Source of the DNA: Lysobacterales bacterium
GTDB taxonomy: Bacteria; Pseudomonadota; Gammaproteobacteria; Xanthomonadales; Xanthomonadaceae
Assembly: GCA_020442465.1 (NCBI GenBank)
Contig: JAGRJY010000057.1
Location: forward strand, 1 to 55,762
Length of the DNA: 55,762 nt
Direction: 5' to 3'
Below the pieces are notes generated by a model. The model had not been told where the DNA came from. It saw only the letters and a list, made by a program, of their open reading frames with translations, and searched no databases. Shown here one piece after another: positions 588-44,589 of the stretch. Position 1 is the first letter of the stretch. Each line of letters starts with the position of its first letter. Position numbers and translations under genes: made by a program.

Positions 588-1223
588 ATGAAGACCCTCA
601 CCGCCCGCCAGCAGGCGATCTACGATTTCATCGCCGAGCACCTTGAGCAGCAGGCCTTGCCGCCGACCCAGAGCGAGCTGGCGGCGGCGTTCGAGATCCC
701 GCTACGGGCGGCGCAGAAGCATCTGGCTGCGCTGCAGGCGAAGGGCATGCTCGAGCTGCGGGCGAACACCGCACGCGGTATCCGGCTGCTCGGCGGGCGC
801 CGGGCCGGCGCGCTCGAGGCCCTGCCCGGGCTCGACGCCGGCCTGCTCGAGCTGCCGATTCTTGGCCGGGTCGCCGCCGGCCGACCGATCGACCCGCATG
901 CCGCGCATCAGGGCAGTCGGCTGTTCGACCCGCGGCTGTTCGCGCCACGGCCGGACTACCTGCTGCGCGTGGTCGGTGATTCGATGCGCGACGACGGCAT
1001 CCTCGACGGCGACCTGATCGCGGTCGCCCGCCGGGTCGATGCCGAAAACGGCCAGACCGTGGTCGCCCGTCTCGACGGCGAGCTGACGGTGAAGCGTCTG
1101 CGCCGCGACCGTCGCGGTATTCAATTGCTGCCGCGCCATCCGGACTTCGCTCCGATCATGGTCACCGAGCAGCACGAGTTCGCGCTCGAAGGGCTGTTCT
1201 GCGGCCTGTTGCGGACGGCGTGA
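588..1223 (+). CDS. lexA: LexA-family SOS repressor of the imu cassette
   Basis: This 211-residue protein has the full LexA layout: an N-terminal winged helix-turn-helix (about 1-65, starting MKTLTARQQA) and a C-terminal S24 autoprotease. The scissile Ala97-Gly98 lies in GRVAAGRP, nucleophile Ser132 in GDSMRDDG, and Lys169 in GELTVKRL. The spacings (35 and 37 residues) equal those of E. coli A84/S119/K156, so self-cleavage should work. It is the first gene before imuA-imuB, the arrangement of the second LexA (LexA2 type) of xanthomonads. It probably represses its own cassette in response to RecA filaments. Whether the cell has another LexA cannot be seen here. Confidence 0.93.
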   Translation: MKTLTARQQAIYDFIAEHLEQQALPPTQSELAAAFEIPLRAAQKHLAALQAKGMLELRANTARGIRLLGGRRAGALEALPGLDAGLLELPILGRVAAGRPIDPHAAHQGSRLFDPRLFAPRPDYLLRVVGDSMRDDGILDGDLIAVARRVDAENGQTVVARLDGELTVKRLRRDRRGIQLLPRHPDFAPIMVTEQHEFALEGLFCGLLRTA

Positions 1224-1232
1224 GGCCTGATC

Positions 1233-1898
1233 ATGAGCGCAGCTGCCGCCAGTACCGTCGTCGAACTGAACACCCTGCTTGACCGCAAGCGGCTGTGGCG
1301 GGGCCCGGCGCCGAAGCCGGACACACCCTCGGCCGCGCCGACCGGCCATGTCGAACTCGACGCAGCACTGCCCAGCGGCGGTTGGCCGGAGTCGGCGATC
1401 AGCGAACTGATGCTCGCCGCGGATGGTATCGGCGAGATCCAGCTGCTGCTGCCGACGCTGGTGCGGCTCACCCAGCAGGGCCGCGCGGTGGTGTGGGTCG
1501 CGCCGCCGTACCGGCCCTACGCCCCGGCACTGGCGCGTGCCGGGGTCGATCTTGCCCAGCTGCATGTGATCGACGCCGACGACCAGGCGCCGTGGGCGCT
1601 CGAACAGTGCCTGCGCAGCCAGGCTTGCGCCGCCGTGCTCGGCTGGCTGCCGCGTGCCGACGACCGCTGTCTTCGGCGTCTGCAGGTCGCCGCCGAAACC
1701 GGCCACGCGCTGGGCTTCCTGTTCCGCCCGGAAGCCGCCGCACAGAATCCGTCGCCTGCCGCACTGCGTCTCGCGCTGCAGCCCGGCCTGCTGCGGGTGC
1801 TGAAGTGCCGCGGTGGCGTCGCCCCGGAGCGCGCATTCGCTCTGAATACTGCTGATCTGAACACGGCAGCCCTGCCCACGGCCCAGCTGGCGGGATGA
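1233..1898 (+). CDS. imuA: ImuA, translesion mutagenesis accessory protein
   Basis: The 221-residue product matches the ImuA (SulA/RecA-like) family that always accompanies ImuB and DnaE2. Recognisable stretches are the start leading to HVELDAALPSGGWP and the following ELMLAADGIGEIQLLLP, where RecA relatives carry a Walker A loop; no intact GxxxxGKT is present, as is usual for ImuA. It starts 9 bases after the lexA stop and ends 6 bases before imuB, so the three genes form an operon. Its expected role is to help assemble the ImuB-DnaE2 mutasome at damaged DNA together with RecA. Identification rests on context and family resemblance. Confidence 0.88.
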   Translation: MSAAAASTVVELNTLLDRKRLWRGPAPKPDTPSAAPTGHVELDAALPSGGWPESAISELMLAADGIGEIQLLLPTLVRLTQQGRAVVWVAPPYRPYAPALARAGVDLAQLHVIDADDQAPWALEQCLRSQACAAVLGWLPRADDRCLRRLQVAAETGHALGFLFRPEAAAQNPSPAALRLALQPGLLRVLKCRGGVAPERAFALNTADLNTAALPTAQLAG

Positions 1899-1904
1899 GA
1901 CGCC

Positions 1905-3335
1905 ATGCTCTGGGCCGCCCTGTACCTGCCGCATCTGGCGCTCGACGCCGTCGCCCGCACCTTCGAGGATGCCGACATGGCGGTGTCCACGTCCTGGTTG
2001 CTGATGCACGGCCCGATGCAACGGCGTGTGGTGTACGCAGCGAACCCGGCGGCTTCCGCCGCCGGTGTGCTCGCCGGCCAGCCGCTGGCCGCGGCCCAGG
2101 TGCTGTGTCCCGAGGTGCGCATCCTCAACCACGACCCGGCGGCCGCGGCACATCTGCGTGACCTGCTGGTCGCCTGGGCCTACGGCTACAGCAGTCAGGT
2201 CTGCCAGAACGAGTCGGACACGATCTGGGTCGAGGTCGGCGGCAGCCTCGGCCTGTTCGGGCCCTGGCCCAAGCTCGAACGCCAGCTGCGCAGCACGCTC
2301 GACGACTTCGCGATCCAGCACCGCATCGCGCTGGCGCCGACCCCGCTTGGCGCCGAAGCGCTGGCCCGCGCCAGCGATGGCATCGCGGTGTTCGACGCCA
2401 CCACCCTGCGCCGCGCACTCGATCCGCTGCCGATCGAACACAGCGGGCTGGACGAAGACATCGTCGATGCCCTGCACGGCATGGGCATCCGCCAGCTGCG
2501 TCAGCTGTTCGCCCTGCCGCGCGCCGGGCTGAACAGGCGGTTTGGTCGCGACACCGTGCGCCACATCGAGCGCATGCTCGGCGAAACCCCCGATCCGCGC
2601 CCGCTGTATCGCCCGCCCGAGCGCTTCCTCGCTCGCTGCGAGTTCGACCACGAGATCAGCCTCAGCACCGCCCTGCTGTTTCCGCTACGGCGCATGCTCG
2701 ACGATCTCGCTGCCTACCTGGTCGCCCGCGACGGCGGGGTCACCGATTTCGAGATCGGCTTTGAGCATGACGACCACCCGCCCAGCCATCAGCACGTCGG
2801 CCTGCTGCAAGCCGAACGCGACGGCGCCCGCCTGTTCGACCTCGCCAAGCTCACCCTCGAACGCGTGCAGCTGCCCGCGCCGGTGCGCGCCCTGCTGATT
2901 CATGCCGAACACCTGCCGCCGTTTCTGCCCACGCGACAGGACCTGTTCGACACCCGCCCCGCCAGCGCGCTCGACTGGGTCGGCCTGCACGCTCGCCTCG
3001 CCGCGCGCCTTGGCCCTGAAGCCTGCCAGCAGCTCGCCCTGGTCGCCGACCCGCGTCCCGAATACGCCCAGCGCGGTGTTGCGGAGCCCACCCGTCCGGT
3101 TGCCGGGCGTACTTTGCTGCCGCGACCGAGTTGGCTGCTTGAGCGGCCCACACCGCTGCGCGATCCCGCGCCGCGCATTCTGGCTGGCCCCGAGCGCATC
3201 GAGTCGGGTTGGTGGGATGGCGATGACGTGCGCCGCGATTACTATGTGATCGAGACCAGTCGCGGGCAACGGGCGTGGGCGTTTTGTGCACCTGGGGAGG
3301 TGGGGCCCTTCATGTTGCATGGGTGGTTTGCGTGA
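1905..3335 (+). CDS. imuB: ImuB, inactive Y-family polymerase-like mutasome hub
   Basis: The 476-residue protein has the Y-family palm and finger order (starting MLWAALYLPHLALDA) and a helix-hairpin-helix region around ALHGMGIRQLRQLFALPRAGL. The acidic residues that bind metal in active Y-family enzymes are missing: the first motif reads YLPHLALDA instead of a DxD-type motif, and the DE pair is replaced in DTIWVEVGG. This loss is typical of ImuB, which tethers DnaE2 and the sliding clamp and does not synthesise DNA. It sits 6 bases after imuA. It is separated from dnaE2 by 1.1 kb of repeat sequence, which is longer than the usual compact cassette. Confidence 0.9.
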   Translation: MLWAALYLPHLALDAVARTFEDADMAVSTSWLLMHGPMQRRVVYAANPAASAAGVLAGQPLAAAQVLCPEVRILNHDPAAAAHLRDLLVAWAYGYSSQVCQNESDTIWVEVGGSLGLFGPWPKLERQLRSTLDDFAIQHRIALAPTPLGAEALARASDGIAVFDATTLRRALDPLPIEHSGLDEDIVDALHGMGIRQLRQLFALPRAGLNRRFGRDTVRHIERMLGETPDPRPLYRPPERFLARCEFDHEISLSTALLFPLRRMLDDLAAYLVARDGGVTDFEIGFEHDDHPPSHQHVGLLQAERDGARLFDLAKLTLERVQLPAPVRALLIHAEHLPPFLPTRQDLFDTRPASALDWVGLHARLAARLGPEACQQLALVADPRPEYAQRGVAEPTRPVAGRTLLPRPSWLLERPTPLRDPAPRILAGPERIESGWWDGDDVRRDYYVIETSRGQRAWAFCAPGEVGPFMLHGWFA

Positions 3336-3385
3336 TTTTTAGCGCCGGTGTTCGGATGGCGTGGAAGGCAACCCCGCATGCCGTT

Positions 3386-3409
3386 GTAGGAGCGGGCCAT
3401 GCCCGCGAC
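3386..3409 (+). repeat. Single REP-type palindrome
   Basis: The sequence begins GTAGGAGCGGGC and closes with GCCCGCGAC around a central CAT, giving a GCGGGC/GCCCGC hairpin. GTAGGAGC followed by a short palindrome is the standard form of REP elements in Xanthomonadales and Pseudomonas. It lies just downstream of imuB. No RAYT transposase is present in the window. Confidence 0.75.
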
Positions 3410-3464
3410 TGTGCGTTGGGATGGTCGATTGGCGGCTGCGTAGTGGCGAGGTCTGGAAAGAGCA

Positions 3465-3890
3465 GGATCAAGAGCGTTTCATTGCGCCGCTCGGGCACCT
3501 CGCGCATCGCAGCGCATCGATTCGAGAGCCAAGCAGGGCTTTCAGTCCGACCTGCGGTCGGCGGTTGCGTTGTCGCTGCGTGTGCAAAGAGCAAGATCGA
3601 GAGCTTTCGATGCGGCCTGCGGCCACCTCGCCCTTCGCAGCTCTTGAATCCGAGAGCAGAGCTTTCGTTGCACCCTTCGGGCGCCCCGAGTCACTTCTCT
3701 TTGGGTGGCCAAAGAGAAGTAACCAGGAGAAAGGCCACCCGGGGTTCGCGCTTCGCTCACTGCGTGAGCGAAGTGCCCTGCGTTGCTCGCAAGTCAGCAG
3801 CCGGCGCGAACTCGGCCATCCATGGCCTCGAACATGCGCGCCTTTCCCTGCTGACTTGCTGCGCTACTCGGCGCGAACACGGGACATTGC
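3465..3890 (-). repeat. Interspersed repeat, copy 2 (inverted, between imuB and dnaE2)
   Basis: Reverse-complement copy of the repeat at 1-425, recognisable over nearly its whole length. The core hairpin ACTTCTCTTTG-ggtggc-CAAAGAGAAGT is at 3693-3720. Together with copy 1 it flanks lexA-imuA-imuB as a pair of inverted repeats. Long frames across this region (for example 3275-4429) translate repeat sequence and are not taken as genes. Confidence 0.82.
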
Positions 3891-4127
3891 GCGTGGACGG
3901 GCCACGCAAGACTTGCACACACGCTCCGCGCCCACACGCTTCTGCAAAAGCGTCTCCTGTTTCACTGACTCAGCAGCCAACACTGCTACTTCTCAACACA
4001 TTCCCTGTCATTCCCAGGTGTAGCCATTCAAGCAGCAACTGCCACCAGTTCAAACGGCTTGTTTCAACCACGCTTGGATGCGGCGCGATTTCTCTGATTG
4101 GTCGAAGCATTTCCCCGCGACCCCTCC

Positions 4128-4400
4128 CGTTGTTCGTGCCGAGCAACGGAGCCAGCCGCGGGAGCAAGGCGCGCATGTTCGAGCACAGGGATGTGCGAGT
4201 TCGCGCCGGCCCGCGGGTGGCGAGTAGCGCAGGGGACAGCGCTCGCTTTGCGAGCGCTGCACGAACTTCGGGTGGCCTTTCTCCTGGTTACTTCTCTTTG
4301 GCCACCCAAAGAGAAGTGACTCGGGGCGCCCGTAGGGCGCAACGAAACGCTCTGCTCTTTGAACGCCATCACCTCGCATGTGAGCTGCGCTGCGACGGCA
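4128..4400 (+). repeat. Interspersed repeat, copy 3 (before dnaE2)
   Basis: Direct copy of the left part of copy 1, with the core hairpin ACTTCTCTTTGG-ccac-CCAAAGAGAAGT at 4290-4317 followed by GACTCGGGGCGCCCGTAGGGCG, as in copy 1. It ends roughly 40 bases before dnaE2. The segment 3891-4127 between copies 2 and 3 holds no recognisable gene. Confidence 0.8.
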
Positions 4401-4443
4401 TTGCGATGAGGAGCCACCCCGTCTCCTGACGGCCCAACCTCCC

Positions 4444-7400
4444 ATGAAAAGCAGCACAAGCTACGCCGAGCTTCATTGCCTCTCCCCCTTCAGCTTCGGC
4501 CGAGGCGCCTCCTCCGCCGACGAACTCTTCGAACGCGCGAAGAAACTCCATTACCAAGCGCTGGCGATCACCGATGAATGCTCCCTCGCCGGCATCGTCC
4601 GCGCGTTCGAGGCTTCGAACAAACACGAACTCCCGCTGATCGTCGGCAGCGAATTCATCCTTGATGACGGGCTGAAGCTGGTTGCGCTGGTGGAGGACCA
4701 CACCGGCTACAGCGGGCTGTGTGCGCTGATCACCAAGGCGCGGCGGCGGGCGGTGAAGGGCAGCTATCACATCACCCGCGGTGACTTCAGCGACGGGCTG
4801 CCGGGCTGCGTGCTGCTGTGGTGTCCGGGTGAGTGCATTGATCAAGACCAGGGCGCCTGGATGCGGGCGACGTTCGGCGATGGTCGAGTCTGGCTGGCGG
4901 TCGAGCTGCATCGCGGGCCGGACGATGCGGCGCGGCTCGAGGCGCTGTTGCGCACGGCAGACGCGCTGTATCTGCCGGCGGTGGCCTGCGGTGACGTGCA
5001 CATGCACGTACGCCGGCGGCGGGCGCTGCAGGATGTGCTGACCGCGCTGCGCCATCGGCTGAGCGTGGCCGAGGCAGGTGCATATCTGTTCGCGAACGGC
5101 GAGCGGCATCTGCGTACGCTGCCGATGCTGCAGCAGGTCTATCCGCAGGCCCTGCTCGACGAGACCGGGCGCATCGCCGCGCGCTGCGGCTTTCGCATGG
5201 ACCAGCTGAACTACCGCTACCCGCGCGAGCTGGTGCCGGAAGGCCACACCCCGTCGAGCTGGCTGCGCACGCTGACCGAGGCGGGCATGCAGCGGCGCTG
5301 GCCCGAAGGCGTGGCGCCGAAGGTGCGCCAGCAGATCGAGTCCGAACTCGTGCTGATCGCCGAGCTGCAGTACGAGGCGTTCTTTCTCACCGTCGAGGAT
5401 GTGGTCCGCTTCGCCCGCTCGCGCGGGATTCTCTGTCAGGGCCGCGGCTCGTCGGCGAACTCGGCGGTGTGTTTCGCGCTCGGCATCACCGAGGTCGATC
5501 CGGCGCGGATGAACCTGCTGTTCGGCCGGTTTCTGTCGAAAGAACGCAACGAGCCGCCGGATATCGACGTCGACTTCGAGCACGACCGCCGCGAGGAGGT
5601 GATCCAGTATTTGTATGCGAAATATGGACGCGAACGCGCCGCACTCGCGGCCACCGTGATCTGCTATCGCGGCAAGAGCGCGATCCGCGATGTCTCCCGC
5701 GCGCTCGGCCTGCCGCCCGACCAGATCGATCAGCTCAGCCGCGCGTTCGCCTGGTGGAATGGCGAATCCGATCCCGCCGAACGGGTGCGCGAGCGCGGCT
5801 TCGATCCGGACAGCCCGGTGCTGCGCCGGGTGCTCGCGCTGACCAGCGAGCTGCTGGACATGCCGCGCCATCTCTCGCAGCACGTCGGCGGCTTCGTCAT
5901 CGCCGATGCACCGCTGTCCAGCCTGGTGCCGGTCGAAAACGCGACGATGCCGGATCGCACCATCATCCAGTGGGACAAGGACGATCTCGAAACGCTCGGT
6001 CTGCTCAAGGTCGACGTACTCGCGCTCGGCATGCTGAGCGCGGTGCGGCGCTGCTTCGAACTCATCGAGCGTCATCGCGGCTATGCGCTGACGATGGCCA
6101 CGGTGCCGGCCGAAGACAAACCGACCTACGCGATGATCCAGCGCGCCGACACGGTCGGCGTGTTCCAGATCGAATCGCGTGCGCAGATGGCGATGCTGCC
6201 GCGGCTGAAACCGGCAACGTTCTACGATCTGGTCATCGAGGTCGCGATCGTTCGACCCGGTCCGATCCAGGGCAACATGGTGCATCCCTACCTGCGCCGT
6301 CGGCAGCAGCAGGAGCCGGTGCGCTATCCGTCCGAGGGCATGCGCGAAGTGCTCGGCCGCACGCTCGGCGTGCCGCTGTTCCAGGAACAGGTGATGCAGC
6401 TCGCGATCGTCGCCGCCGACTTCAGCGCCGGCGAAGCCGACGCGCTGCGCCGCGGCATGGCGGCATGGAAGCGCCACGGCGGCCTCGAACATTTCCGTCA
6501 GCGCCTGTTCGACGGCATGGCGTGCAATGGCTATCCCGAGTCGCTGGCCGAGCAGCTGTTCGAGCAGATCAAGGGCTTCGGCAGCTACGGCTTCCCCGAA
6601 TCGCACGCGGCGAGCTTCGCCCTGATCACCTATGTCAGCTGCTGGCTGAAATGCCACGAGCCGGCCGCGTTCACCTGCGCGCTGCTGAACTCGCAGCCGA
6701 TGGGCTTCTACGCACCGAGTCAGCTGATCCAGGACGTGCGCCGGCATGGCGTCACCGTGCGGCCGGTCGACGTGCGCTACAGCGATTGGGATTCGACGCT
6801 GGAGCCGGCGGTCGATCGGGCGGAGCAGGGCGGCCGCGTGCGCGAACCGGCGCAGACCTACATGCGGGCGGTGTCCAGCACGTCCGCTCCATCGATGCTG
6901 AACGATGGCGAATCCGACCCCGGCGAGGCGATCTGTTCGACTGCACCACACAGGGTTTCGTCGGCGGCACCGTCGAGGGCGGAGCGCGCGGGTGTCGAGG
7001 AACTCTGCGAGTCTGGGCGAATGGCTTCGACGCTGCATGGGCGTGACGATAGGCAGAGGCATCGATCTGATCGTCCATCCAGCGACCGGCCCACGTCCCG
7101 GCCCCTATCCCGGAATGCCACCCGGCCTGCTCCGGCCGGCGAACAGCAGCCCGCGATCCGCCTCGGCCTGCATCAGATTGCCGGTCTTGCTGAAGACGCC
7201 GCCCTGCGCATCATGGGCGCACGCGCCGCCGCGCCCTTCGACGACGTCGCCGACCTCTGCATTCGTGCCGAGCTCGACCAGCGTGCGCGCAGCCTGCTCG
7301 CCGAAGCCGGCGCCCTGCGTGGGCTCGCCGGGCACCGTCACCGCGCACGCTGGGCCATCGCCGGCGTCGAGGCGCAGCTGCCGCTGTTTGCCGATTCGCC

Positions 7401-7851
7401 GAAGGAAGACGCCGTCACCCTGCGCGTGCCTACTGTCGGCGAAGACCTGCAGGCCGACTTCGCCCGCCTCGGCCATACCCTGGGCCCGCACCCGATCCAG
7501 CTGCTGCGCCGCCAGCTGCAGGCACGCCGCTACCGCCGCTCGCGTGATCTGAACGACATGGAACACGGTCGCCCGGTACGCGTCGCCGGTCTCGTCACCG
7601 GCCGCCAGCGCCCGCAGACCGCCACCGGCGTCACCTTCGTCACCCTCGAAGACGAAGACGGCATGATCAATGTCGTGGTCTGGCGCGACCTCGGCGACAG
7701 GCAGCGCCGCGTGCTGATCGAATCGCGACTGCTCGGTGTCGCCGGGCGGCTCGAAACCGTCGACGGGGTGCAGCATCTGATCGCGGGGCGATTGTTTGAC
7801 GAGTCGGATTTGCTGGGCGGACTGACCACGAGGTCCAGGGATTTTCATTGA
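4444..7851 (+). CDS. dnaE2: DnaE2 (ImuC) error-prone DNA polymerase III alpha, with insertion
   Basis: A 1135-residue C-family polymerase. The PHP domain opens with [16 protein letters not shown]. The catalytic acid pair lies in [14 protein letters not shown], and the third metal-ligand region in [18 protein letters not shown]. The helix-hairpin-helix region includes [16 protein letters not shown], and an OB-fold near the C-terminus contains [13 protein letters not shown]. DnaE2 makes mutagenic translesion synthesis with ImuA and ImuB. Oddity: between SDWDSTLEP (ending near residue 788) and [12 protein letters not shown] (from about 904) there are about 114 extra residues rich in Ser, Arg and Ala with no domain character. 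In relatives these two motifs lie close together. The frame is kept throughout, so the gene is probably intact. Its separation from imuB may uncouple its expression. Confidence 0.93.
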
Positions 7852-7913: not shown

Positions 7914-8328
7914 GTCGGGAATGAATTCCCTCCTACAGAAGGGCGGGCGCATCGCTGGTGCAGGAGGGGATTCATCCCCGACCGTACCGACACGATTCGC
8001 CGTACCGTCCTGCCACCAGCCAGTCCATGTCGGGCATGAACTACCTCCTGCAGAAGGGCGGGCGCATCGCTGGTGCAGGAGGGGATTCATCCCCGACCGT
8101 ACCGACACGATTCGCCACACCGTCCTGCCACCAGCCAGTCCAGGTCGGGAATGAATTCCCTCCCACAGAAGGGCGGGCGCATCGCTGGTGCAGGAGGGGA
8201 TTCATCCCCGACCGTACCGACACGATTCGCCGCACCGTCCTGCCACCAGCCAGTCCAGGTCGGGCAGGGATTCCCTCCTGCAGAAGGGCGGGCGCATCGA
8301 TGGTGCAGGAGGGGATTCATCCCCGACC
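7914..8328 (+). repeat. 115-bp tandem repeat of REP-like hairpins
   Basis: Three full units and one partial unit with an exact 115-base period; GGGCGGGCGC recurs at 7941, 8056, 8171 and 8286. Each unit holds inverted arms, GTCGGGAATGAATTCCCTCC and a right arm ending GGGGATTCATCCCCGAC, around AGAAGGGCGGGCGCATCGCT, so each can fold into a long hairpin. A constant linker ending CTGCCACCAGCCAGTCC separates hairpins. The arms resemble the GTAGGAG...CGAC form of REP elements. It fills most of the gap between dnaE2 and the next gene; 8329-8456 shows nothing else. Confidence 0.9.
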
Positions 8329-8456
8329 CTACCCTGGCGGGCCACCGACGAGGCAGCATGGCCCACTGACGAGAGCGCCGGGTTATCCTCTGCCGCCTCG
8401 TCGCGGGCCCGCCAGGTCGGGCCAGGCGGCCTTGTCGACTTCCCTCAGGCAGATTC

Positions 8457-9496: not shown

Positions 9497-10684
9497 ATGA
9501 AACACATGCTCATGCTGGGCGGGGGCCTGCTGGCCTCGTCGCTCGCACTTGCCGCCCCGCCTCGCGACGTCGACGGCAGCTGGTACAGCCCCGTGCAGTC
9601 GGGGCATGGCCTGACCATCGAACGCATCGACGCCGACCATGCCCTGGTCTTCTGGCATGTGTTCGATCCTGAGGGCCAGCCGCTCACGCTGTACATCGAA
9701 ACGTCGATCGACGGGAACATCCTGGCCGGCGAGGCCTACGCGCCCGGCGGCATGCGCTTCGGCAGCTTCGATCCGGCCGAGTTCGTGCTGCCGCAGTGGG
9801 GGACGATCCAGATCGAGTTCACCGACTGCCAGAACGCCACCCTGCACTACGACGGCGCGCTGCCGGGCTACGGCAGCGGCGACATCAATCTGATCCGCCT
9901 GCTTCCCCTGCCGCAGACCGACTGTGCGCTGGACTGGCCGGCTGACGCCACATCCTTCGCCGGCGCGCGGGTGGCAGGTCGACTCGAAGGCAGTCTGGTG
10001 GGCGACGGCATCGCCGTCGACGTCCGCGGAGACATGGAAGGGATCGTCGATGAACAGGGACAGCTGTGGTTGGCTGCGCCCTATGCGAGCCCTGCACCCG
10101 AGGCCGACTTCGTGGTGGTCGCCGAGCCGTCGGGCGGCGTGCCCGGCAGGCCCCGTTTCAACGCGACGGCCTACGAGAACGGCTGGCTGGATCCGTTTCG
10201 CCCGCGCGCCGGTGCCAACCCCGGTGCCGCACCGCTTCGCGGCAACTTCGAGTTCAGTCTGGATGGTCGTCCCCAGCGCATCGCAGGCTACCTCTTCGAG
10301 GACGGTTCGAATGCATGGGAGGGTCGCCTGGAGACCCAGCCGCGCATCGCCGCAGAGCCGCTTCGTGCCGCCACCTACGCCATCACGGCATCGGTGCCGG
10401 GCGACACCTGGCAACTGCAGGTTCGCAGCGACCGCAGCCTGTGCGTGCTCAAGGTGGAGCTGCTGGCGCGCTGCCGGATGCAGGGTCGGATTACCGCTGA
10501 CCTGGACGACTACTTCGAGTTCGAATTGCAGGACAGCTTCGGCGACCGGCCGATGTTCCGGGGCGTCGGCCGGGCGATCTACCAGGTCGATCTGCTCGGG
10601 TTCGGCGCCGCGCCGGCCCTGCGCATGACCGCCCATAACGGCCAGACCGGCTTGCAGATCACCTTGCCTCAGCCGCGGCCCTGA
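9497..10684 (+). CDS. Secreted protein with N-terminal WYxPxxSGxG domain
   Basis: 395 residues from the ATG at 9497, chosen because it gives a clean signal peptide (MKHMLMLGGGLLASSLALA then APP); the frame is open upstream to 9353. Immediately after the signal peptide comes a short domain with GSWYSPVQSGHGLTIE and then FWHVFDPEGQPLTLYIE. The same signature occurs in the genes at 21983 and 43456. The remaining roughly 290 residues match no family known to me; they contain two cysteine-bearing segments and appear rich in beta strands. Likely periplasmic or exported. Function unknown. Confidence 0.75.
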   Translation: MKHMLMLGGGLLASSLALAAPPRDVDGSWYSPVQSGHGLTIERIDADHALVFWHVFDPEGQPLTLYIETSIDGNILAGEAYAPGGMRFGSFDPAEFVLPQWGTIQIEFTDCQNATLHYDGALPGYGSGDINLIRLLPLPQTDCALDWPADATSFAGARVAGRLEGSLVGDGIAVDVRGDMEGIVDEQGQLWLAAPYASPAPEADFVVVAEPSGGVPGRPRFNATAYENGWLDPFRPRAGANPGAAPLRGNFEFSLDGRPQRIAGYLFEDGSNAWEGRLETQPRIAAEPLRAATYAITASVPGDTWQLQVRSDRSLCVLKVELLARCRMQGRITADLDDYFEFELQDSFGDRPMFRGVGRAIYQVDLLGFGAAPALRMTAHNGQTGLQITLPQPRP

Positions 10685-21982: not shown

Positions 21983-24900
21983 TCAGCGCCAGCGCGGGTC
22001 GTTCGGCGGATCGGCCAGAGGCACCAGGTTAACGTCGTTGCGCAACCAGTCGCCGCTGGCATGATCGATGAGGAAGTCTGCGCGCGGCGCGCGCGGGCTG
22101 GCGAAGTTCCAGTCGATACGGCCGGCCGGTGTCAGCACCGGTTCCACGCGGGCACAGTCGGGGCAGAAGCCGCGGTAGCTGTCCACCGCCAGCGATTCGA
22201 GGTCGAGACGGTTGTCGCCCACGCCGAGCGCCCAGCGCGGCGATCCGTCGTCGGCGTAGTAGTACAGAAGCACCGCGCGCGCGTCGCCGGTGCTGTACAC
22301 GCTGGTTCCCCAGCCTGATTCGCCCGGGTCGTAGTAGATGCCGGTATGGTCGGGTGCAGGTGGCGCCGTGCTCTTCAGCAGCATTTCCACTGGCTCGCTC
22401 CCGCTGCGCGTACCGATCCGCCAGGTGAACGTGGCATGGTCGGCATCGATGAAATCGAGCCCGACCTCGCCAACCGTCGCGCCCGTGGCAACGCGGTTGG
22501 CGTCGTTCCAGGTGTAGCGGAACAGCGGCGCGCGCCAGGCCGTCGCGGCGTTCGCGGCGGCCTGGTACCACACCGGCTCACCCGCGTCGTCATAGGTGTA
22601 CCAGGTCATGGCCAGAATGCCGCCCGCGCGTTCGAGGTCGAAACCGTGGCCGCTGCGCGCCGGGTTGAACCACAGCCCGATGCTGGCGCGCAGCGTGCTC
22701 GACGCGGGGTCGGTGGGGTCGGCGCCGAGGCGCAGTTCCTCTGCATCGCTGAGGCCGTCGCCGTCGCGATCGATACCGAAGCGGACACCGAGTGATTTCG
22801 GTGCGGCGGTGAGCAGCAGCGGATCGGATGGCGAGGCCAGCTCGACGAGGTTCTGCCAGCTGGCGAGCGCCGATCCGTCGTCGGCGAGAAACAGGTCGGT
22901 CGCCGACTGGAAGCTGTAGTCGCGGCCCGCCACCGCAGCCACCAGGTCAATCCGTCCCGCGCGTGCTTCACTGCGCAGCGTTTCAGCGTCCGGATTGGAC
23001 GCGCTACCGTCCAGCGCGATCTGCTTGCCGACCGCGGCGTGGCTGTCCAGCGACAGCGGTGGGGCAGCGCCGAGCGCCGGATTGGGCAGGTCGAAGCGGC
23101 TGCCGCTGAAGCTGATGGTGAGGGAGACGAGGTCGGCGATGTCCTGGTCGGAGCCGACGCTGAACACGCTGGCGGAAAGGAAACGGGCCAGGGTGTCGAC
23201 CGATCCGTCGTGGAGAAAGCCAAAGCCCGCGCGGCTCGGTGACTCGGTCAGGGTGAATCCGACCTTCTCGAACTGGTTGCGCAGCTGCGCCACCTTGATC
23301 GACACGTTGGTCGAGCCGTCGGTGCTGACGATGCCGAGATGGTTCTCGCCCTTCGGGCCGATCGGCATGACCGCGCCGCCCGCGGGAATCTGTCCGCCGG
23401 TGCCGAGGAACATCGGCCCGTTCACCGCCATGCCGGTCGGCAAGGTGTGGCAGTTCGCACACTGGAACGGCGCGTCGAGCAGGCCCTGGGTGTACAGCTG
23501 CAGGCCGCGCTGCGGATTGCCCGGCGGCAGCGGCTGGCCGGCGACGGCGAAGCGCCCGCTGGTGGTGTGGTCGGGCAGGGCGAGCTGATTGCGCAAACCG
23601 TTGTCGAGCGAGCGATGCGGGTTGGGCGGGAAGCGCAGGGTCGCCAGGAAATCCTCGAACGCCTGCATCTCCGCACCGGTCAGTGGACCGGGTCGACCGA
23701 GCAGGTTGGGGAAGGCCGGATTGAACGCTTCGATGCCGGTGCGATCGCCGCGCCAGTGATGCGGTTCATGACCGATGATGTCCTGCATGGTCTGCGTGGT
23801 CATCGGCCCCTTCATCGCGTGGAAGTCTTCGCAGGGGGTGCCGCGACCGGTGATGCAGTTCTGGTCGAACGGCTGCGGCGGTTGCGAGGGGTCGCCGAGG
23901 TCCCAGGCGAGGCGATCCATGCGGCCGTCGATGTGGCAGGAGGCGCAGGCAAGCTGACCCTGGCCCGAAGTCAGGTGGGTGTCGTAGAAGAAGCGTCGCC
24001 CTTCGCGAATCACTTCGGGCAGCGGATTGAACACGGCGATGCGTTGGCTTTCCGCCTGCGCGGCCAGATCGATCACCGACAGGCTGGCCTCGAAGTGGTT
24101 CCAGACATAGAGCAGCCCGCGCGACTCGTCCACCGCGATGCCGTTCGGCCCTTCTCCGACCGACATCGGCGCGCCCACGCGCGCGCCGCCGGCATCGATC
24201 TCGATCACGTTGTTCGAGCCCATGCCGGCCACGTAGCCACGCTGGCCGTCGCCACGCCAGGCGACGGCGCGCGGATCGCCGATCGACTGGTTGCGCACGT
24301 CGACCGGGGCGGGAACCGGTTGTTGGGCGAGATGGGCGTTGAGATCGCGCAACGGAAGCGCGGCGCCGGCTTCGTCGATCTGCGCCAGCCGCACCTCGAC
24401 GAAGCGGCCGCGCAGATTGGGCTCGTAGCGAATCTCGTTGTGCGCCTCGGTGCCGACCAGCGAGAAGCCGCCGCCCGGTCGCGCAGAGAGCGCCATGCCG
24501 ATGTTCATCAGGCCGTCGACATACGACACCGCAAGGGTGTTCGCGTCGATCAGGGCGACGTCGTGGTCGAGCAGGTCCCAGCCGACACGCCGTCCGGACG
24601 CCGCGGCGAGCGAACCGCTGACCAGCTCGGTCCAGTCACCGGTATTGTCGTCGCGCCAGCGACCGTCGCCGTCGCGTTTGACGATCAGGCCGACCTTGGG
24701 CGGCGCGGCCTGAAGATGCATCGGCGGGTCGAACTCGGTACCGCGATTCGGCGGCGGATTCTGACCCCCGTAGGGGCCACGCGCGTCGCTGACCACGTTG
24801 GGAATGGCGAGGATCGGATTCTGGCTGGCCAGACCGCCGCCGAGGATGGTGCTGCCGTTGCCCGACTCGAAGATCGCCGCCGCCACGGTCTGCCCGTCGG

Positions 24901-25393
24901 CGGACACGGCGAGCGCACGCGGGTCTTCGGCATCCAGGCGGATGATGCTCGGCGCCGCATCCAGGTCGTCGAGGCGGTACACGCGAATCTCGTTGAGCTG
25001 CGAGCAGGACACGAATGCCTTGCCGGCGGCGAACACCACGTCGAACGGCTCGTCACCCGTGGCCAGCGTGCGGCGCACCCGATTGCTCGCGACATCGACG
25101 ATGCTGATCGAGTCGGAGACCTGGTTCACCACCCACAGCTCGTTCGCATCGCGAAAGCGCACGCTGACCGGGTCGATGCCGACCTTGATGTGTCCCGCCG
25201 GCACGGGGCCGCGGTGACCCAGGCGGAACCACTGCACGCGACGGTCCGCGGTGTGTGCCACCGCAAGCCGAGCCCCATCCGGGCTGAGATCGAGCGCGTG
25301 CACCGGGTGGTTTTCCCAGTTGTGGTGCGGCAGTTCGATCGCCTGGGCCGGGAAGGCGGCAGCGAGCAGCAGGGCGGCGAGCGGTCTGATCAT
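21983..25393 (-). CDS. Secreted beta-propeller / dihaem cytochrome c with two WYxPxxSGxG domains
   Basis: 1136 residues from the ATG at 25393, chosen for its signal peptide ([18 protein letters not shown]). Order: a YVTN-type beta-propeller (about 25-440; [37 protein letters not shown]); a cytochrome-c-peroxidase/MauG-like region with two haem sites, CASCH near 483 and CANCH near 643; a segment with a calcium-loop-like [19 protein letters not shown] near 875; then two copies of a short domain, [16 protein letters not shown] (about 904) and [16 protein letters not shown] (about 1016). The protein should be periplasmic or at the cell surface and redox active. The tail domain also occurs in the genes at 9497 and 43456. 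It is monocistronic. Confidence 0.85.
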
Positions 25394-43455: not shown

Positions 43456-44589
43456 ATGCCTCGTCCGATTCCGTGGCTGCTTGCCCTGGGCGCCGCGATC
43501 TGTGTGATGCCCTGCTCGGCGCAGCTGCCGGCAGCCGACCCGGTCGGCCTGCGCGGCGACATCGGCGGGCTCTGGTACGACCCCGACAACTCGGGGCAGG
43601 GGCTGCATCTGGATGTCCTCGACGGCGGGCGTGTCACCCTGAGCTGGTACACGTTTGATGCTGAAGGCCGGCCGCTGTGGCTGATCGGGTTGGGTGAGGT
43701 GGACGGCGACGCGGCGGACCTGGCGCTCAGCCAGGCCAGCGGTGGGCGGTTCCCCACCTTGGCCGACGATGGCGATGTGGCCATTGAGTCCGTTGGCACG
43801 GCACGCATCGTGTTTTCGGGCTGCGACACCGCCGAGCTGGACTTCAGTTCGTCCACCGGCGAGCTGCCGGATGGCGTGATCGGCCTGCACCGCCTGACCG
43901 CCACCCAGGGTGTGCGCTGCCATGCCGACGAGGAATTTGGAGAGCGGCGGCATTTCAGCTTTGAGCGCGGCGCACTGCAATTCAGCCCGGTGTTTGCCGA
44001 TCTGCCGCCCGACGGACAGGACATCTACGAGCTTGAGTTCGCCTGGGAGACGCTGCCCGCGCCGCTGCAGGCGCGGCGCGGCATCCGCCTGGGCGGACAC
44101 AATCGCTCGGACGATCTGGCCATGCTGGTCAAGGCTCCGTTGCGCGGACTGCAGCCTGATGCCCTCTATCGCGTGGAGCTTGCCCTGGAGATGGCAAGCG
44201 ACGTGCCGCGCGGCTGCGCCGGCGTGGGCGGGTCGCCTGGCGACAGCGTGTACATGAAGCTGGGTGCCAGCGCGATCGAACCGCTGGCGGTGGAGCAGAT
44301 GGAGGGCGCCGCGCCGATCCTGCGCCTGAACATCGACTTTGGCGTGCAGTCGACGTCGGGGACGCAGGCGTTGGTCGTCGGCGATCTGGCCAATACCCAG
44401 TCCTGCGACGACCTGTCGCTTGGACGCTGGGAATTGAAGAGCCTGAACACGCGGAGCGCCAACTTCCGGGCCCGAACCGATGCGACCGGCACGCTGTGGG
44501 TGGTCGCCGGTCTCGATTCCGCGTTTGAGGGGCGCACCGACGTGTACTTCACGGCGCTCGACGTGTACCTCGAGCCCGTCGCCGAATAG
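43456..44589 (+). CDS. Secreted protein with N-terminal WYxPxxSGxG domain
   Basis: 377 residues from the ATG at 43456 after an AAAGGAACC ribosome binding site, giving signal peptide MPRPIPWLLALGAAICVMPC to CSA. Right after it is the shared short domain: GGLWYDPDNSGQGLHLDV, then LSWYTFDAEGRPLWLIGLGE. The rest (about 170-377) is a predicted beta-rich domain of no known family, containing CAGVGGSPGDSVYMKLGAS. The domain order matches the protein at 9497: signal peptide, signature domain, then an unrelated tail. Its partner occurrence is the cytochrome at 21983. Function unknown. Confidence 0.78.
   Translation: MPRPIPWLLALGAAICVMPCSAQLPAADPVGLRGDIGGLWYDPDNSGQGLHLDVLDGGRVTLSWYTFDAEGRPLWLIGLGEVDGDAADLALSQASGGRFPTLADDGDVAIESVGTARIVFSGCDTAELDFSSSTGELPDGVIGLHRLTATQGVRCHADEEFGERRHFSFERGALQFSPVFADLPPDGQDIYELEFAWETLPAPLQARRGIRLGGHNRSDDLAMLVKAPLRGLQPDALYRVELALEMASDVPRGCAGVGGSPGDSVYMKLGASAIEPLAVEQMEGAAPILRLNIDFGVQSTSGTQALVVGDLANTQSCDDLSLGRWELKSLNTRSANFRARTDATGTLWVVAGLDSAFEGRTDVYFTALDVYLEPVAE

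Follow-up and report, generated by a model that had tools for sequence, protein, structure and literature searches.

A domain of about 107 residues, with 67 matches in the genome of one Lysobacterales bacterium and a predicted calycin-like barrel fold, may tether secreted proteins to the surface of the cell or to its matrix; we put the probability of this role at roughly 45%. The family behind this proposal is real: an unnamed, predicted calycin domain that has multiplied within one order as a terminal module on secreted proteins. It is a new family with a known fold in a new use, present in tens of copies per genome and in at least 42 frames here, yet named by neither Pfam nor NCBIfam. In all counts below, 'order' denotes the grouping of the genome collection used, not that of NCBI.

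Identification of the domain family

The window, that is, the whole stretch of 55,762 nucleotides that was analysed, holds four copies of the domain in three proteins:

9497..9556, + strand: signal peptide of the 395-aa protein at 9497-10684, judged by eye from the sequence
9566..9931, + strand: barrel copy 1, single, directly behind the signal peptide (profile E 2.8e-30)
9932..10681, + strand: body of the 395-aa protein, no family in Pfam/NCBIfam
21995..22351, - strand: barrel copy 4, second of the pair, with a CPDC motif (profile E 1.1e-22; pair model)
22346..22687, - strand: barrel copy 3, first of a C-terminal tandem pair (profile E 5.5e-29; pair model)
22691..25393, - strand: body of the pair's host protein (21983-25393), beta-propeller repeats by Pfam/NCBIfam
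43558..43926, + strand: barrel copy 2, single, behind the signal peptide of the 377-aa protein at 43456-44589; the copy modelled with AlphaFold2
43927..44586, + strand: body of the 377-aa protein, no family in Pfam/NCBIfam

Judged by sequence comparison, the four segments are copies of one domain of about 107 residues. The original prediction had pointed to WYxPxxSGxG-type motifs, and all four are present where it had placed them, though the domain that it called short has this full length and eight predicted strands. It had also set the domain right behind a signal peptide, which is correct for 9497-10684 and 43456-44589 and wrong for 21983-25393, where both copies are C-terminal. The bodies are as unrelated as had been supposed, the best E-values in BLASTP among the three being 0.39, 0.28 and 0.21. 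The body at 22691..25393 scores over the cut-off for TIGR02276 (beta-propeller repeats) and for a TSP3 repeat, and has a MauG-type haem match just below the cut-off. A protein search with the body at 9932..10681 retrieved eight proteins, and residues 1-170 of the 377-aa protein matched at least 20; the window's own protein came first in each.

The bacterium's own genome (4.23 Mb in 187 contigs) contains many more copies. As sole query, the copy at 43558-43926 gave 53 matches at E <= 0.01, itself included, and found the other window copies at 9575-9904 (E 3.9e-12), 22556-22678 (E 4.2e-6) and 22172-22342 (E 4.7e-4). A profile built from 61 copies, the kind of search that had been proposed for the domain, returned 67 matches at E <= 0.01 in 42 reading frames, two of the matches being pieces of one broken-up place (C120). 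The E-values of the single-copy and profile searches rule out a chance motif. A known family is ruled out by comparing the window proteins and the 61 copies with Pfam and NCBIfam, where nothing covers the domain, as had been supposed, and by a PDB sequence search, whose best E was only 0.54. The best weak Pfam match among the 61 copies is to the DUF1583 C domain (E 0.0013, one copy). Avidin (PF01382), lipocalin (PF00061) and carbohydrate-binding module (CBM) families are all absent from the 12 Pfam families that these copies match at E <= 1, as are tail models of the GlyGly-CTERM/MYXO-CTERM type from their NCBIfam matches. A literature search by title and abstract returned nothing on such a barrel domain.

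Identity to the first row of the alignment is 17-41% for the 61 own-genome copies. Across 148 full copies, conservation is highest in an initial G-x-W-[YFW], in P-x-x-S-G-x-G, in W-[YF]-T-[YF]-D-x-x-G-x-x-x-W, in a strand-6 Gly and in an L-x-R-L close to the end; several aromatic residues of the domain are conserved. GxW occurs in 97 of these copies, an Arg or Lys at position 112 in 130, and Cys89 together with Cys121 in 87. A C-x-x-C is found in the second copy of seven window-type pairs (CPxC in six, CRTC in one). Eight of the 151 copies in a tree have the motif, which takes 2 changes there, against an average of 7.9 for shuffled labels.

Predicted structure

AlphaFold2 modelled the copy at 43558-43926 as an eight-stranded barrel (pLDDT 93.7, pTM 0.85), and the predicted model has the antiparallel up-and-down beta topology expected of a calycin. 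The nearest PDB structures are nitrophorins, designed barrels and avidins, with lipocalins also among the top matches, though Foldseek against the PDB gave no match at E <= 0.001 for the single barrel or the pair. The calycin signature is described in PMC2954199 as a first-strand Trp latched by an Arg or Lys of the last strand. Read from sequence only, Trp6 (strand 1) and Arg/Lys112 (last strand) are combined in 116 of the 148 copies. The domain is thus predicted to fold as an eight-stranded calycin barrel of the avidin/lipocalin kind, and the two barrels of a pair are predicted to pack in a defined way; in a second comparison of the pair model with the PDB, at most 107 of 235 residues aligned, which leaves room for a known arrangement. 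The independent small beta-domain that had been anticipated is what structure modelling predicts, and neither alignment nor fold broke down in the two models made, one of a single barrel and one of the tandem pair.

With loop ends assigned by the up-and-down topology instead of coordinates, open-end and closed-end loops are similar overall (1.37 and 1.31 bits per position), and the idea of a conserved binding mouth was dropped because the two ends are alike on average. As only loop 1-2 stands out in conservation, the loops do not establish a conserved binding site. Conservation is lowest in loop 7-8, and insertions are seen in some loops. Together with the low identities among the own-genome copies, this variability would suit a diversified ligand-binding scaffold whose copies hold a different small molecule in each host protein. 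We consider such a scaffold very improbable, since very different hosts share the pair, the order of its copies and its terminal position, a constancy more easily reconciled with a single common role.

The calycins (avidins, lipocalins, nitrophorins) differ from the domain and have no sequence match to it. Unlike them, it is an end module, often in tandem, on large secreted proteins, with tens of copies per genome. The barrels of Ochrobactrum D-aminopeptidase (1ei5) and quinohaemoprotein amine dehydrogenase (1jju) also have no sequence match to it; to our knowledge these are parts of single enzymes and are not known as portable domains.

Placement, pairing and secretion

Placement was scored in 106 distinct frames from the window and the collected loci, of which L041 and L096 repeat L055 and L085 in truncated form, several more are truncated at locus ends, and L090-L094 lie outside the order (L093 and L094 being probable chance matches). 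Two copies are present in 60 frames and one in 46, with a linker of 1-22 residues in 57 of the 60 pairs. In 65 frames the last copy reaches to within 40 residues of the C terminus, with 0-26 residues beyond the barrel; in the other 41 it stops more than 40 residues short of it. In 32 of these 41 the barrel starts at most about 15 residues behind the signal-peptide cleavage site, as placed by eye, and in nine it is further in or internal (L015, L077 and L017 among them). Terminal placement in predicted secreted proteins, as had been expected, is therefore the prevailing arrangement, with some copies further in or internal. The description as a portable module is borne out by carriers with unrelated bodies, mostly terminal barrels and predicted secretion. 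In two genomes a barrel lies well inside the protein (L015 and L077), and L015 matches DUF4331.

Most carriers are predicted to be secreted and to have signal peptides. With search lengths kept equal, a crude signal-peptide rule over 250 residues accepted 34 of 39 own-genome carriers and 124 of 492 control frames (all other frames of at least 250 residues, shadow frames included); over 150 residues the figures were 31 of 39 and 97 of 492. Among the five carriers that the rule missed, a Sec signal is seen in three (the protein at 43456, L021 and L025), L012 has a twin-arginine signal and L030 is cut by a contig end.

First and second copies of pairs group apart. Their distribution on the tree takes 18 changes, against an average of 36.7 and a minimum of 29 in 200 shuffles, the tree being a quick one from few columns, with 24 of 148 inner branches starred and several long branches. 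The nearest neighbour is another protein's copy of the same kind for 40 of 53 first and 39 of 57 second copies. In 53 pairs, the distances among the first copies correlate with those among the second (r 0.78; none of 2000 permutations as high), a value to which the shared ancestry of orthologous hosts, left in by the permutation, contributes. From this separate grouping and the correlated distances, the pair has mostly spread jointly, orthologous hosts contributing.

Cargo and possible functions

Pfam at E <= 0.001 was applied to the 36 own-genome carriers outside the window. The matches comprise glucose/sorbosone dehydrogenase, M12B, M36 and M14 peptidases, cyclophilin, dioxygenase, a beta-lactamase with FG-GAP, Kelch, Vps10, DUF1800, cupredoxin, DUF4331 and nidogen, as well as other propellers, with RCC1 repeats in three carriers and weaker matches such as PKD. 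Fourteen of the 36 have no Pfam match, and none has a glycoside hydrolase by Pfam. One carrier (L004) matches the NCBIfam F510_1955 family glycosylhydrolase at 113.9 bits, below the cut-off of 175. NCBIfam choice-of-anchor families are absent at E <= 1e-5 from the 20 carriers scanned.

By inference, a tether is the best-supported mechanism for the barrel. The carriers would leave the cell through the Sec pathway and then probably by the type II system; the barrel would then bind some component of the surface or matrix of the same bacterium, and one module would thereby keep many different secreted proteins close to the cell. We count in favour of a tether the mostly terminal placement, the signal peptides predicted for most carriers, the joint spread of the pair, the barrels at the end of the own M36 protease, the lack of glycoside hydrolases by Pfam and a cargo too varied for one substrate. 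Against it we count the sub-cut-off glycosylhydrolase match of L004, the absence of choice-of-anchor families from the 20 carriers and the like conservation of open-end and closed-end loops. Were the barrel a tether, it would be a soluble folded alternative to the membrane- or lipid-anchored sorting tags of other lineages and would open a direct way into the surface proteome of a group of environmental bacteria. Being compact and able to sit at either terminus of widely differing proteins, the barrel would also lend itself to use as a display scaffold.

The barrel could instead be a carbohydrate-binding module that directs enzymes to an external polysaccharide or to prey, not to the bacterium's own cell. 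Tandem terminal barrels resemble CBM pairs, the conserved aromatic residues and the L004 match would fit, and L010 has an M12B carrier with a match to the Mep72 model, at 66 bits and far under the cut-off of 645. According to PMC4334185, Mep72 carries a tandem of two carbohydrate-binding domains and is exported by type II secretion. The barrel pair is like that of Mep72 in being two tandem C-terminal domains on a secreted metzincin; it differs in that no CBM profile matches the 61 copies and that, by Pfam, the carriers are mostly not polysaccharide enzymes. We regard carbohydrate binding of this sort as rather unlikely, given that no Pfam glycoside hydrolase occurs and that many carriers are propellers, a cupredoxin, a cyclophilin or proteins with no match.

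A further alternative is that the barrel serves the export of its carriers by type II secretion. The GspD secretin is over the cut-off in 39 of 40 genomes, with or without the barrel, and placement at either end would be compatible. However, 16 of the 17 barrel-less genomes among the 40 have GspD over the cut-off, so that type II secretion does not need the barrel, and a role in export is distinctly unlikely. As an explanation of the barrel's distribution, type II secretion was rejected on the same observation.

A tether invites comparison with MYXO-CTERM, GlyGly-CTERM and the T9SS C-terminal domain, which, like the barrel, occur in tens per genome on unrelated secreted cargo in one lineage. 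The barrel differs from these surface-sorting tails in being a predicted folded domain of about 107 residues that is also found N-terminally and that no tail model matched. We know of no processing enzyme for it, unlike the tails. The T9SS domain is strictly C-terminal, and the barrel, more than 40 residues from the end in 41 of 106 frames, is not; copies behind a signal peptide or inside the protein, as in L015, L077 and L017, count against a classical C-terminal sorting tag. GlyGly-CTERM and MYXO-CTERM consist of a C-terminal motif, a transmembrane helix and a basic end, an arrangement for which the 0-26 residues behind the barrel leave too little room, motif and helix together, in nearly all C-terminal carriers. 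According to PMC11980579, MYXO-CTERM puts proteins on the surface with the type II system.

M36 proteases and the FxDGFE tail

M36 proteases bring the barrel and the surface-sorting tails to the same protein end. NCBIfam names its M36 models by sorting route (myxosortase-, rhombosortase- and T9SS-dependent), and the bacterium's own M36 protease follows the myxosortase-dependent model to residue 1087, at 831 bits and below the cut-off of 1500, and then has two barrels from residue 1099. With a barrel pair at this C terminus, the barrel can stand where other lineages have an address label. M36 was found in 30 of 101 genomes of the order, and 32 M36 frames were inspected, 31 of them complete. Three of the 31 end in barrels (the own genome, G036 and G030, the last with a weak first copy of 15.6 bits), a low share that we count against a tether. 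Another 21 end in a short aromatic-GFE-like tail of the FxDGFE kind, by a rule that was written after the tails had been seen and that 28 of 2081 control frames also satisfy, and seven end otherwise.

The coding pattern F-x-D-G-F-E-stop (TAA/TGA) occurs in 15 of 40 genomes, all of them among the 23 with the barrel, and in none of the 17 without it; a reversed control pattern occurs in none of the 40. The one-sided hypergeometric probability of this co-occurrence, which ignores descent, is 1.2e-5 overall and 0.0033 within the bacterium's own family. Of eight such places read by eye, seven end long frames with secreted-looking repeat or propeller bodies. The remaining one, L149, is its genome's sole match and could be a shadow frame. 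On these pattern matches, FxDGFE is a second unnamed C-terminal tail that co-occurs with the barrel in the 40 sampled genomes. In the literature searched, terms for the tail are absent and only 'choice-of-anchor' occurs. FxDGFE C termini were seen on M36 proteases and on other secreted-looking frames (L128, L138, L132, L103 and L143-L148).

The barrel pair might go further and be the address tag of an unrecognised, order-wide surface-display system, standing beside the FxDGFE tag and docking on a dedicated surface receptor or glycan. We offer this as a tentative and somewhat doubtful extension.

Distribution across genomes

Among 40 relatives, own genome included, 23 have the barrel: four of four in the own genus (20-67 copies), a patchy three of 20 among other members of the family, and 16 of 16 in other families of the order (17-79 copies). 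In wider scans it was found in 103 of 150 genomes of the order, two of 276 of the class (own genome included) and eight of 397 of the phylum, where at most 29 candidates per genome were scored in the order sample and 11-15 in the class and phylum samples, so that copy counts are minimum values and genomes whose copies are very few and diverged may have escaped the scans. Of the 47 genomes of the order sample that gave no match, the 20 that are listed all belong to the bacterium's own family; two genomes of family f12 lack the barrel in the phylum sample. Of the eight phylum genomes, three belong to the order (the own genome among them), three come from a single further family of the class, with one to three diverged copies each, and two have weak matches. 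Those two, G492 and G637 (L093 and L094), lie outside the class and on sequence reading look like chance. In the other family of the class, L090, L091 and L092 are diverged single barrels behind a signal peptide, and are possible outliers or a possible root of the barrel family.

Named carriers come from Pseudomarimonas arenosa, Pseudomarimonas salicorniae, Lysobacter sp. CAU 1642, Chiayiivirga and Wenzhouxiangella; in NCBI taxonomy, Pseudomarimonas and Chiayiivirga belong to Lysobacterales, Wenzhouxiangella to Chromatiales. A restriction to Xanthomonadales, as had been suggested, holds insofar as the barrel is concentrated in one order and named carriers are mostly Lysobacterales (Xanthomonadales), and is loosened by a few matches beyond. 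In a database of 5.8 billion protein sequences, searched among proteins near the profile's own length, the profile found 21 proteins, none with a Pfam domain; the names shown are 'hypothetical protein' (four) and 'lysyl endopeptidase' (one).

Other features of the window

Domain matches in the stretch at 588-7851 (+) are to LexA, to an IMS (Y-family-like) protein and to the alpha chain of DNA polymerase III, a layout that we take to be a LexA-imuA-imuB-dnaE2 damage mutagenesis cassette. At 7958-8350 (+), the peptide MQEGIHPRPYRHDSP starts the frames at both 7958 and 8188, and the stretch upstream of 8457 therefore seems to hold a DNA repeat.
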